Source of the DNA: Candidatus Methanophagaceae archaeon
Lineage (GTDB): Archaea > Halobacteriota > Syntropharchaeia > Alkanophagales > Methanospirareceae
Assembly: GCA_003194435.1 (NCBI GenBank)
Contig: PQXC01000009.1
Span: forward strand, 1-64,000
DNA length: 64,000 nucleotides
Direction of reading: 5' to 3'
The notes under the pieces are model-generated. The model saw only the letters and a program-made list of their open reading frames with translations. It was not told the origin of the DNA and did no database searches. A program made the translations under genes and the position numbers. Of this stretch, positions 1,211 through 6,145 are shown piece after piece (the first letter of the stretch is position 1; each line of letters opens with the position of its first letter).

Positions 1211-2191
1211 TTAGCCTCTACCTCGAGTCCCAGCGAGGAAGAAAGAAGCTATGAGTGCATCAAGCTGGATTCTCTCATTTGCACCCTCTGTTATCCTGAA
1301 GTCTGCTTCCCCTATTCTATCCATCAATTCCACCTTCTTACGTGCCGGAATATCCATACTTATCACCAGCCGGTGCATCTGTGCCAGTATCTCATCGCCT
1401 GAGACACCTCTATCGAGTAATTCCGCGAGCTTATCAAGAGCAGTCATAAAACTGCCGTTCATTGCCTCTTTTATCAACCCCTCTATCTCTTCCGGTCGCG
1501 CCATTGCCGTTAGCCCGTAGACCATCTCCGGTCTTATCTCTTTGCTCAGCACTGCTGCACTTTGAAGCGCGTTTATCGCACGCCGCATATCTCCCATTGC
1601 CACATAGGTTATGGCATCTATACTGGCATCAGAGAGCTTCAAACCCTCCTTATCTGCAATGTAGGCTATACGAGCGGCGATAGCATCATCGGGTAGCTGT
1701 TTGAACCTGTATACCGAGCATCGAGATTGTATAGGCTCTATAATCTTAGAAGAGTAGTTACAACTGAGAATAAACCTGCAGGTGCCTGAGTATCGCTCCA
1801 TTGTCCTCCTTAACGCCGATTGCGCCGCATCTGTCAGTGCATCCGCTTCATCAAGGAAGATTATCTTGAATGCCGAATCGCCGATTGGCATGGTTCTCGC
1901 GAAGTTCTTTATCCTGTTGCGAACAACCTCTATACCGCGCTCATCCGATGCGTTCAACTCCGTGAAGTTCTCTGACCATGTATCACCAAATAGCTCCCGT
2001 GCCAGTGCGACCGCGGCAGCAGTCTTGCCCACACCCGCGGGTCCTGAGAATATCAGGTGCGGTAGATTCCTCTTCTCCACATACGATTTGAGGTTGCGTA
2101 TTATATGCGGTTGCCCTACTACCTCATCCAGTCGCCATGGTCGGTATTTCTCGATCCATATCTCCTCTCGCTGCATCTGCTCTGCTTCCAC
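1211..2191 (-). CDS. rfcS: Replication factor C small subunit
   Basis: [15 protein letters not shown], Walker [13 protein letters not shown]-type Walker [12 protein letters not shown] motif. Confidence 0.95.
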
Positions 2192-2236
2192 CCCTTTAAT
2201 AAATAATAAGAAGTGAACTAAGTAATAATATCGTTC

Positions 2237-2839
2237 ATGATATGGATAGACATGGATATGAGCCTGGAGCTGGTAAAGGCGTTCATCACTCTATTTGTGG
2301 TTATGGACCCGCCGGGAAATGTCCCCATCTTCATCGCGGTAACCCGGGTTATGGGAAAAGAAGCACGTAAGAGGGAGCTTAACCATGCGGTTGTGGTTGC
2401 GACATTGCTGCTACTTCTATTCGCATTCCTCGGCAAGTTCGTGCTCGATGTTCTGAATATAAGTCTGGATAGTTTCATGGTGGCAGGAGGAATTCTACTC
2501 CTCCTCGTATCCTTTGACCTTCTGCGTGAGCATAAATATCTGATAAAGGAGGCGGGCAGGGGGATAGGTGCAGTGCCAATAGGGACACCTCTACTCGCCG
2601 GTCCGGGCGCTATAACAACTGTTATGGTGATCATACAATCCCGAGGTCCTTTTGTTGCTTTATTTGCTATATTCTCCGCTATTATTGCCACTAAATTGAT
2701 ATTGGGGCAGTCAGAGCGAATATATAAGGTAATGGGCAGTGAAGGTTCAGAGGTGTTGAGTCGTGTGATGGGGATACTGGTAGCTGCTATTGCTATACAG
2801 TTCATCAGGGACGGGATTGTCGGTATGATTAAGGTTTAA
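2237..2839 (+). CDS. MarC family (UPF0056) integral membrane protein
   Basis: [21 protein letters not shown] and [14 protein letters not shown] motifs; 6 TM-like segments. Confidence 0.9.
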
Positions 2840-3021
2840 GAAAAAGTTATGCTGGTGATTGTGATAAATGAAGAGAAAACGCGACGCACAAAAAGATACA
2901 ACATACTTTGTTATAACAAACTTTTTGGAGGTAGCATCAAAAATAAAAAATCGAATAGCTTTTATACGTACAGACCCTGTACTTAAGCATGGGGTATGTG
3001 ACTTAAAGGAGGTGAGAAGAT

Positions 3022-3330
3022 ATGGCAGAAGAAGTTTCATTAGAGGAATACAAAAAGGCATATAGGGAAGTAGTGTCGGAGGAGGAGAAAAGAGACTTTT
3101 TAGTTCATCTGGTAGTGTACGTGCTGGTTAACGCTATGTTGATAGCTATTAACTTCATATATTCTCCCGAGGCTATCTGGTTCTTTTATCCACTCATAGG
3201 TTGGGGAATAGGTATATCAATACACTATCTATCCGGTGTTCGCTGGATACAAAAAGAGCTTGAGGAGAAGGAAGCTAAAGCGGAATATAAGGCGAGGGAA
3301 GCTAAGGGCTTAAATCTCCAAAGCACGTAA
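3022..3330 (+). CDS. 2TM-domain small membrane protein
   Basis: FLVHLVVYVLVNAMLIAINFI...WFFYPLIGWGIGISIHYL matches the 2TM domain pattern; strong Shine-Dalgarno AAAGGAGGTGAG upstream. Confidence 0.75.
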   Translation: MAEEVSLEEYKKAYREVVSEEEKRDFLVHLVVYVLVNAMLIAINFIYSPEAIWFFYPLIGWGIGISIHYLSGVRWIQKELEEKEAKAEYKAREAKGLNLQST

Positions 3331-3331
3331 A

Positions 3332-4000
3332 TTGAGAATAGAAAAAATGAAGCGAAAAATCGCCATCGGTATTGCGGCTGTTGCTGTAGCGATAATGCCA
3401 ATGGCATTAACATGGATGTGGTTGGATTTCTGTGACATGCAGTCTTTGAAATGGGAAATCCAGGACGAAAAATTGTATGAGGGCTTTTCATGGCTGTCCA
3501 ATAACACGAAAGAAGGTGAAACGGTATTAGCATGGTGGGACTATGCGGATGGAATCGAGAAGATAGGGCGTAGGAAAGTGGTGATAAGAGAAGCTTCGAG
3601 GAACATCAAAGAAACAATCGCCGGCAGACAGAAATATCCCTGGAGCTGGATTGAATATGAATTGTGGTATCCCTATGAATCTGAAGATAAGGTCAGGGAC
3701 GTTGCCAACTTCTTTATTGCCGAAAATTCCAATGAGTCCATGAGCATAGCGAGAAAGTACGGAGCTAATTATGTGCTTGTGATCTATCCAGATGATATAT
3801 GGAAATTCCCTGCGATAGTATTGGCTTCTGGAAACGAGCCCGGAGATTACATCACCGGAAATTTAACCATCGAGAGTATAGAAAGAAGAGAAGTTGTGAA
3901 GAAAGAAACAGTTGGAATAAAAATGATTTACGGCGATAACGTTGAAGGATTTGAGAAAGTGTTCGATAACAGGAAAATGAGAATCTACAAGTTAAAATAA
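3332..4000 (+). CDS. Single-TM protein with STT3/AglB-like WWDYG-domain similarity, copy 1 (WWDYA)
   Basis: N-terminal TM anchor; WLSNNTKEGETVLAWWDYADGI and ARKYGANYVLVI resemble the post-TM domain of archaeal oligosaccharyltransferase; ATG at 3350 also possible. Confidence 0.6.
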   Translation: MRIEKMKRKIAIGIAAVAVAIMPMALTWMWLDFCDMQSLKWEIQDEKLYEGFSWLSNNTKEGETVLAWWDYADGIEKIGRRKVVIREASRNIKETIAGRQKYPWSWIEYELWYPYESEDKVRDVANFFIAENSNESMSIARKYGANYVLVIYPDDIWKFPAIVLASGNEPGDYITGNLTIESIERREVVKKETVGIKMIYGDNVEGFEKVFDNRKMRIYKLK

Positions 4001-4102: not shown

Positions 4103-4762
4103 ATGAAACGAAAAATCGTCATCGGTATTGCGGCTGTTGCTGTAGCGATAGTAGCAATGGCATTAATAGGGATGTGGTTGGATTTCTGCAATTTGGAGGC
4201 TGTAAAGTGGCATATTGGAGGACCAAAGGGCGAAGAAGGCTATGAATGGCTGACTAATAACACCGAAGGTAATGCAACCGTTCTGGCATGGTGGGACTAT
4301 GCAGACGGCATACAAGCGATCAGTCACAGGAAAGTAGTAATAAAAGAAGCTTCTGAGAATATTAAAGAGACTATTGCTCCTTATAATTCTCCTGGGCGAC
4401 CATGGAGGAAAATTGAATATGAGTTATGGTATCCTTTTGAGTCAGAGGATAAGGTCAGGGACGTTGCCAACTTCTTTATTGCCGAAAATTCCAATGAGTC
4501 CATAAGAATAGCGAGAAACTACGGAGCTAATTATGTGCTTGTGATCTATCCAGATGATATATGGAAATTCCCTGCGATAGTATTGGCTTCCGGGAACGAG
4601 CCCGACGATTACATCACCGGAAATTTCACCATCGAGAGTATAGAAAGAAGAGAAGTTGTGAAGAAAGAAACAGTTGGAATAAAAATGATTTACGGCGACA
4701 ATGTTGAAGGATTTGAGAAAGTGTTCGATAACAGGAAAATGAGAATCTACAAGTTAAAATAA
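4103..4762 (+). CDS. Single-TM protein with STT3/AglB-like WWDYG-domain similarity, copy 2 (WWDYA)
   Basis: Paralog of 3332-4000; 3' ~310 bp nearly identical with constant offset of 762 bp. Confidence 0.6.
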   Translation: MKRKIVIGIAAVAVAIVAMALIGMWLDFCNLEAVKWHIGGPKGEEGYEWLTNNTEGNATVLAWWDYADGIQAISHRKVVIKEASENIKETIAPYNSPGRPWRKIEYELWYPFESEDKVRDVANFFIAENSNESIRIARNYGANYVLVIYPDDIWKFPAIVLASGNEPDDYITGNFTIESIERREVVKKETVGIKMIYGDNVEGFEKVFDNRKMRIYKLK

Positions 4763-4907: not shown

Positions 4908-5222
4908 TTATGAACCATTGTTTTCAACCACACCAAAAGAAGTAATTTCCTTTTGCTTGTTCATCAAATTTTTAAGGCTTCTTATTGTAGATATAACCTC
5001 AAGTTTTTCTCTTGTTCCAAACTCGCCTCTGGCATGCGCTACGGGGTCTCTTACATCTTTTAAGATATTCAATCTTGCCAATAACCACTCTTTGTCACTA
5101 AATATTTTTGAGAAAATATTTGTCCAATTCTCTTTATCAGTTAATATGAATTGATAATGCTGGAAACCTAAACAGTCTAAAGGTCTCACTATTCGTCCTT
5201 TCCTCTCTTCCTTCCTTGCCAA
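4908..5222 (-). CDS. Small HEPN-like protein
   Basis: LNILKDVRDPVAHARGEFGTREKLEVI contains the R-x4-H motif (RDPVAH) in a helical context; overlaps the 3' end of the RNase HIII ORF; alternative GTG start at 5189 overlaps its stop. Confidence 0.55.
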   Translation of the reverse strand: MARKEERKGRIVRPLDCLGFQHYQFILTDKENWTNIFSKIFSDKEWLLARLNILKDVRDPVAHARGEFGTREKLEVISTIRSLKNLMNKQKEITSFGVVENNGS

Positions 5223-6145
5223 TTTTTCGCATTTACCTGTGGGACAAATCCACCTGTAATCTCTCGGGTTATCGAAAAATGAACCTTGGCAACATTTAAA
5301 AGAGCATCAACACCGTAATCTTTCACGAATTGTTTACCAAACTCTACTACATTCGAAGACCCCTTTGGGAATACCAAACCATAACTTTCACCCATCTCTC
5401 TTAATTTATAAATAAACTTATCTCGTGCTAATATCGAGGCTGTGGCAACAGCTAAATCCCGCTCAGCTCCTGGCACTTGAATTAACTCGATTTCTCTTCC
5501 TTTTCTCATTAAGGCATTTTCAATGTAACTTTGGTCTCCGAACTGATCAGCGATTGCCACTTTGCAGTCCCTTCCATTGCTCAATAAATTTTCTATCGCT
5601 CTTGCATGTCCCCATCCCAGAATCCTATTCTGATTACCCAATTTTTTGTATAAAAGATTGTATTTTATGGGTGAAATCCAGACGACTTCATATTTTTCTT
5701 TGTTTAGAATACTCCTGATTTTAAAAGCCATATTTGAAATACTCGTCTCACTAAGTGTTTTAGAATCTCTGACGCCAATTTTGGATAATTCCTTTTCCTC
5801 ATCTTCCGTGATTAAAACACCTGCAATTACTAAAGGTCCAAAGTAATCACCTTTCCCAGCTTCATCTGTGCCTATTCTGGTGCCTGAGGCATCTATGGGA
5901 GGATATTTCTTTTCTTTTTTCTTCACCTCCACAGCGCCTATTGATAACAGAAAAGCTTCTATTTCTCGAATCCGCTCTTTGTTGCTCCCGCCAAAAACGA
6001 CTTTGCCACTGTTATAGAGGTTAACGACAACATTATCCCCCCTTGCTAAAAATTCCTGATATGGTCGAGTTTCGAATGAGAAACATTTTTTCTCTAAATA
6101 CTCCCTCAGTTTATCCTTTTGCTCTTGTGTCAACTGGAGTGTCAT
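5189..6145 (-). CDS. rnhC: Ribonuclease HIII
   Basis: 318 aa; N-terminal domain plus GTDEAGKGDYFGPLVIAG, VRDSKTLS, IADQFGDQ, AVATASILARDKFI. Confidence 0.85.
   Translation of the reverse strand: MTLQLTQEQKDKLREYLEKKCFSFETRPYQEFLARGDNVVVNLYNSGKVVFGGSNKERIREIEAFLLSIGAVEVKKKEKKYPPIDASGTRIGTDEAGKGDYFGPLVIAGVLITEDEEKELSKIGVRDSKTLSETSISNMAFKIRSILNKEKYEVVWISPIKYNLLYKKLGNQNRILGWGHARAIENLLSNGRDCKVAIADQFGDQSYIENALMRKGREIELIQVPGAERDLAVATASILARDKFIYKLREMGESYGLVFPKGSSNVVEFGKQFVKDYGVDALLNVAKVHFSITREITGGFVPQVNAKNWQGRKRGKDE

Follow-up and report, generated by a model that had tools for sequence, protein, structure and literature searches.

Remnants of an RNase HIII-HEPN fusion gene in a Candidatus Methanophagaceae archaeon and recurring RNase H-HEPN linkages in archaea

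Overlapping RNase HIII and HEPN reading frames

We analyzed a 64,000-nucleotide stretch of contig PQXC01000009.1 from a Candidatus Methanophagaceae archaeon (assembly GCA_003194435.1), referred to below as the window. The first of two overlapping ORFs on its minus strand, rnhC (5189-6145; ATG start, 318 aa), encodes ribonuclease HIII and matches TIGR00716 with 205 bits, above the curated cut-off of 161.2. The TBP-like N-terminal domain (DUF3378), which is the hybrid-binding domain of RNase HIII, occupies positions 5969..6139 on the minus strand (PF11858, residues 3-59; 38.4 bits against a cut-off of 27), and the RNase HII/HIII catalytic domain with the DEDE residues D94, E95, D200 and E228 occupies positions 5273..5875 on the same strand (PF01351, residues 91-291). 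RNase HIII is rare in the phylum, as the initial annotation had assumed for archaea, since only 16 of 397 sampled genomes possess a protein scoring above the rnhC cut-off. A normal RNase HII gene is also present in the window genome.

The second ORF (4908-5222, minus strand; TTG start at 5222, 104 aa) overlaps rnhC by 34 bp (5189-5222), and a shorter version could start from the GTG that overlaps the rnhC stop codon (TAGTG). It carries the sequence RDPVAH (5034..5051, minus strand), which corresponds to the R-x4-H catalytic motif of HEPN ribonucleases and aligns with the RDRVAH and RNxxxH motifs of homologues. This layout had been reported in the initial annotation and is confirmed here. The accompanying assignment of the 104-aa product to the HEPN proteins holds as far as descent by homology is concerned, but not as a description of a complete domain: the ORF scores 20.8 bits against PF18731 (HEPN_Swt1), below the cut-off of 27.5, and aligns with profile positions 54-111 of 115, i.e. 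the C-terminal half only, while an R-x4-H match alone means little in a protein of 104 aa. The window HEPN ORF is thus a fragment covering about half of a HEPN domain.

Intact RNase HIII-HEPN fusions and the 196-bp deletion

An intact counterpart was found in L088 (JAGGSF010000010.1), a contig of 2.2 kb binned with Deltaproteobacteria, in which one gene of 477 aa combines RNase HIII (203 bits against TIGR00716) with a Swt1-type HEPN domain and is 97% identical to the window at the DNA level outside the deletion described below. The transporter gene that flanks this fusion shows 94% DNA identity to a gene of the window genome and of a sister species. Because this flanking gene belongs to the genus of the window, L088 was assigned to that genus as a misbinned contig, its filing under Deltaproteobacteria being a probable binning error, and a deltaproteobacterial origin of the fusion was rejected. 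Two further intact fusions, each of 476 aa and 53-54% identical, were identified in two Archaeoglobaceae genomes by a search of the phylum; their first ~300 residues represent RNase HIII. A scan of the HEPN part against 85,462 species genomes, which relied on short conserved patterns and would let diverged copies escape, identified the same Archaeoglobaceae pair and added L088 as the third match.

Comparison of the window with L088 by blastn and alignment revealed that exactly 196 bp are absent from the window (L088 1100-1295). In L088 the segment is flanked by two AGGT tetranucleotides (1096-1099 and 1292-1295), of which a single copy is left at the window junction (5235..5238, minus strand), where CCCACAGGT is joined to AAATGCG. 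With this segment the window copy has lost the linker together with HEPN helix 1 and the beginning of helix 2, as its frame resumes at residue 53 of the HEPN model. Since 196 is not divisible by 3, rnhC reads about 15 codons out of frame before it stops, and the remaining HEPN sequence lies in another frame. Alignment to L088 accordingly places the end of bona fide RNase HIII at about residue 303 of the window rnhC. The 15-residue tail beyond it (5192..5234, minus strand), ending in NAKNWQGRKRGKDE, is read from HEPN-coding DNA, and the in-frame reading of the matching L088 DNA gives KCEKLARKEERKGR. The Swt1-type HEPN remnant itself extends over 109 codons in frame (4908..5237, minus strand), is 97% identical to the C-terminus of the L088 protein, and yields the partial PF18731 match.

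The initial annotation had interpreted the two ORFs as separate genes coupled in translation, for RNase HIII and for a small HEPN ribonuclease, possibly a toxin-antitoxin or defence module. The 34-bp overlap and a usable GTG or TTG start are what such a pair would show. However, each of the three intact homologues is one fused protein; the separate ORF, with helix 1 and the beginning of helix 2 missing, falls below the HEPN cut-off; and the overlap arises from a frame-shifting deletion. We therefore rejected the coupled pair, which we regard as highly improbable; the 34-bp overlap is best read as a deletion scar, produced by out-of-frame reading across the junction. The two window ORFs are almost certainly pieces of one fused gene that was split by a recent 196-bp deletion. 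The RNase HIII product should still be made in the window genome, with the HEPN half left as a remnant.

Differences between the window and L088 are mostly silent on both sides of the break (dN/dS ~0.09 and ~0.10), and the HEPN part contains only 10 differences in total; this silent-site bias indicates that the break is recent. The same dN/dS of ~0.1, still visible on both sides in a draft assembly, would also fit a break that is unreal, i.e. an artefact of assembly or strain mixture with the gene intact in the living organism. We consider this unlikely, given that the junction is clean and has a 4-bp repeat, as real deletions between short repeats typically do, and that the HEPN part is missing from two related genomes as well (see below), so that its loss recurs.

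Conservation of the two catalytic domains

The four acidic residues D94, E95, D200 and E228 are invariant across all fusions and align with solved RNase HIII proteins, whose structures the model of the RNase HIII part also matches. Against PF18731, the HEPN part of the intact fusions scores 43.7-43.9 bits, above the cut-off of 27.5, and the 43.7-bit match covers profile positions 5-111 of 115. The R-x4-H motif of the HEPN part is kept as RDPVAH in the window and as RDRVAH in Archaeoglobaceae. Both active sites are thus retained in the intact fusions, and both are predicted to be enzymatically active.

The model of the intact HEPN domain is all-helical (pLDDT 83, pTM 0.77), with helices at residues 5-46, 49-64, 77-85, 87-92, 101-119 and 127-150. 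A Foldseek search of the model against the PDB gave no match below E 0.001, and structures of known HEPN toxins ranked 4, 7 and 10 at E ~1; the HEPN assignment therefore rests on profile homology and the motif. Between the two Archaeoglobaceae fusions, the HEPN part shows a dN of 0.080 and a dS of 1.09 and is thus under purifying selection. The unusual fusion of RNase HIII and HEPN domains suggests that the two activities are used together.

A clamp-binding-like tail

All three intact fusions possess a C-terminal motif Q-x-x-[LI]-x-x-F, in the forms QRTLDSF and QSTLDSF in Archaeoglobaceae and QKEITSF in L088. The last of these is also present near the C-terminus of the window ORF (4935..4955, minus strand), where it resembles a PCNA-interacting peptide. 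The same motif ends the RNase HII proteins of Archaeoglobaceae, and the structure of an RNase HII-PCNA complex from A. fulgidus is available (PDB 3p83). The motif is carried by 12 of the 355 distinct ORF ends tested in the DNA examined, and 11 of these 12 belong to RNase HII or to the fusions described here. The tail of the fusions, which is without the usual second aromatic residue, is a good, though unproven, candidate for docking on the PCNA clamp.

Distribution, genomic context and probable loss of the HEPN domain

The unit common to the window and L088 (4904..6207, minus strand, by blastn of L088 134-1626 against the window) ends abruptly on both sides, ~60 bp upstream of the start codon and 4 bp beyond the stop codon, and the gene therefore lies in different surroundings in the two strains. 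RNase HIII genes of two related genomes, G005 (82% identical) and G268 (~73%), have different surroundings again and are without a HEPN part, so that the neighbours differ among all four copies. No HEPN debris was found near rnhC in G005 or G268.

Several features were observed around these copies. In the window genome, the counterpart of the transporter gene bordering the intact L088 fusion is abutted by a transposase-like ORF (L122:3397-4002), close to the point where the two sequences cease to be homologous. A 2TM-domain gene lies near a HEPN remnant in both the window (3004-3300) and genome G025 (L003:573-868), with differing relative orientation. The window also contains tandem duplicates on the plus strand (3332-4000 and 4103-4762) encoding proteins of 222 and 219 aa, which have weak similarity to part of the archaeal oligosaccharyl transferase (STT3/AglB) and are without most of the enzyme.

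In the phylogenetic tree, the HEPN-less copies of G005 and G268 fall inside the clade of fused proteins (support 1.0), on a branch that they share with the window and L088 (support 0.98) and within which their own positions are not settled. This nesting is most simply explained by loss of HEPN from an ancestral fusion, and HEPN has probably been lost repeatedly. Retention of RNase HIII alone in these two genomes indicates that the RNase H half is useful without HEPN. Short relics of the HEPN C-terminus are present in G027, G025 and G019; we considered these fragments as parts of functional pairs and rejected this, as they look like relics of the same gene. The overall pattern is that of a moving gene whose HEPN half often decays, a behaviour to be expected if the effector is costly. 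Around the Archaeoglobaceae copies, the neighbouring genes form no consistent defence island, and the fusion was not found in phages, plasmids or viral contigs by pattern-based viral scans, which are insensitive.

A housekeeping function has to be weighed at this point, in which HEPN would mainly bind RNA or act as an accessory to RNase HIII in the removal of primers or R-loops at the replication fork, and would play no part in defence. The sharing of a clamp-like tail with RNase HII and the purifying selection agree with it, and some HEPN domains are described as non-catalytic RNA binders (PMC3710099). On the other hand, the catalytic residues of HEPN are conserved, close relatives keep RNase HIII without HEPN, the distribution is patchy with changing contexts, and the window genome has a normal RNase HII as well. 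We consider such a function unlikely. The fusion probably serves in defence, the signs of an anti-viral role being indirect: its patchiness, its changing contexts and the match of its HEPN part to the PADLOC candidate defence family PDC-M34B (E 1.9e-13). The PDC-M34B models cover the HEPN region only, and no partner gene was identified at the loci studied here.

Other linkages between RNase H and HEPN domains

The initial annotation had proposed that RNase H and HEPN belong together, and this part of it is borne out by other genomes, where two additional types of linkage were found. Proteins of the RNase HI-TPR-HEPN_Swt1 type occur within the family of the window organism. They are full-length in G011, G026 and G019, interrupted in G032, G223, G237 and G228, and decayed in others, being broken by single stops or fragmented in many genomes. 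Intact relatives are encoded at L007:34-1236(-), L101:412-1932(+) and G026:C111:11170-12351, and a decayed RNase HI-TPR-HEPN fragment is present in the window genome itself, beyond the window (C38:81092-81457).

In three archaeal genomes from two families, RNase HIII was found with an RnlA-like HEPN protein beside it or fused to it (L057:2420-3574(-) with rnhC at 1459-2406(-); L050:1468-3225(-); L063:798-1553(-)). In G201 the two are fused; in G277 and G324 the gene for the RnlA-like protein directly precedes rnhC. The RnlA-like protein of G324, which ends 13 nt before rnhC, scores 38.7 and 33.0 bits against the RnlA cut-offs of 27, whereas the G277 protein lies at the cut-off (27.1 bits) and the G201 protein below it. 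RNase HIII and HEPN are adjacent at 6 of 23 loci (binomial probability 1e-7, assuming 10 HEPN genes per genome), a post hoc figure from non-independent loci that serves as a rough guide.

The linkage of RNase H with HEPN is thus a recurring theme in these archaea, in three architectures: RNase HIII-Swt1-HEPN with a clamp-docking-like tail, RNase HI-TPR-Swt1-HEPN, and RnlA-like HEPN with RNase HIII. It is tempting to speculate, though we hold this only tentatively, that RNase H-HEPN coupling could define a convergent class of archaeal immune effectors with at least three architectures, in which an RNA:DNA hybrid at a replicating element would activate or aim HEPN cleavage.

Comparison with known systems

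The archaeal fusion shares its TBP-like N-terminal domain, catalytic domain and DEDE residues, in both sequence and fold, with the RNase HIII proteins (rnhC, TIGR00716) of Thermovibrio and Bacillus stearothermophilus (PDB 4py5, 2d0a). The intact protein differs from them by the addition of a C-terminal HEPN domain and the clamp-binding-like tail.

RNase LS (RnlA/LsoA) and its RNase H-fused relatives likewise tie a HEPN ribonuclease to an RNase H enzyme, and a TBP-like domain is common to RNase HIII and some RNase LS proteins (PMC3710099, PMC5308261). In contrast to RNase LS, the HEPN domain of the present fusion is of the Swt1 type, the domain order is reversed with HEPN last, and no adjoining RnlB gene was identified. 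Neither the intact fusion nor the window ORF matches the RnlA domains (PF15935, PF19034) or HEPN_RnaseLS. The resemblance to RnlA raised in the initial annotation therefore stands for this gene as an analogy only; true RnlA-like proteins do accompany RNase HIII elsewhere. PMC3710099 also describes HEPN proteins of the RNase LS family in fusion with RNase H or TBP-like domains, with hybrids proposed as the target of the HEPN-RNase H fusions. The two-headed ribonucleases described in 2013, which combine HEPN with RNase III and other domains, likewise contain two RNase domains per protein, although a combination of Swt1-type HEPN with RNase HIII is not described in the excerpted part of that work (PMC3710099). 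No description of a Swt1-type HEPN fused to RNase HIII was found in the limited set of literature searched.

The fusion has no cognate antitoxin gene as its neighbour in L088 or in the Archaeoglobaceae genome G311, and an MNT-type nucleotidyltransferase gene is found directly downstream of the fusion in G290 only. With the antitoxin gene absent at two of three intact loci and a non-recurring MNT-type gene at the third, the fusion does not conform to the toxin-antitoxin module suggested at first. The MNT-type gene lies, together with one for an HSP90-like ATPase, downstream of the intact fusion in an Archaeoglobus genome (L043:1126-1434(-), L081:3689-5266(-)). Identity with the HepT/MntA (HEPN-MNT) system was considered and rejected, since RDPVAHAR and RDRVAHSR are without the tyrosine of RX4HXY and MNT occurs in one genome only.

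In E. coli, RNase HI is required for the activation of RnlA as well as for its restraint by RnlB (PMC5308261). By analogy, the RNase H half of the fusion might hold the attached HEPN toxin inactive and release it on hybrid binding or protein cleavage. Such built-in restraint would agree with the two loci that have no separate antitoxin gene and with the dual action of RNase HI on RnlA (PMC5308261), whereas the MNT-type gene in G290 could itself be an antitoxin. We regard built-in restraint as rather improbable.

Proposed function and implications

Taken as a whole, the best explanation is a two-headed RNase HIII-HEPN gene, split in the window, whose intact form would carry out hybrid-guided HEPN cleavage, likely in defence; we assign to this complete reading a probability of roughly 0.5. 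In this mechanism, the TBP-like and RNase H domains would bind RNA paired with DNA, for example in primers or R-loops, while the C-terminal tail may dock on the PCNA sliding clamp. Hybrid binding would then place or trigger the HEPN ribonuclease on attached single-stranded RNA; alternatively, HEPN may attack the RNA of the cell in a suicidal response. The fusion would likely be directed against replicating mobile elements or viruses.

The case shows that a deletion within a fused gene can mimic a translationally coupled gene pair. The RnlA system of E. coli shows that RNase H takes part in controlling a HEPN toxin, by a mechanism not yet understood. Where a Swt1-type HEPN domain is naturally joined to RNase HIII or RNase HI, both activities would sit in one purifiable protein, which would make the question of whether hybrid binding switches the HEPN ribonuclease on directly testable.
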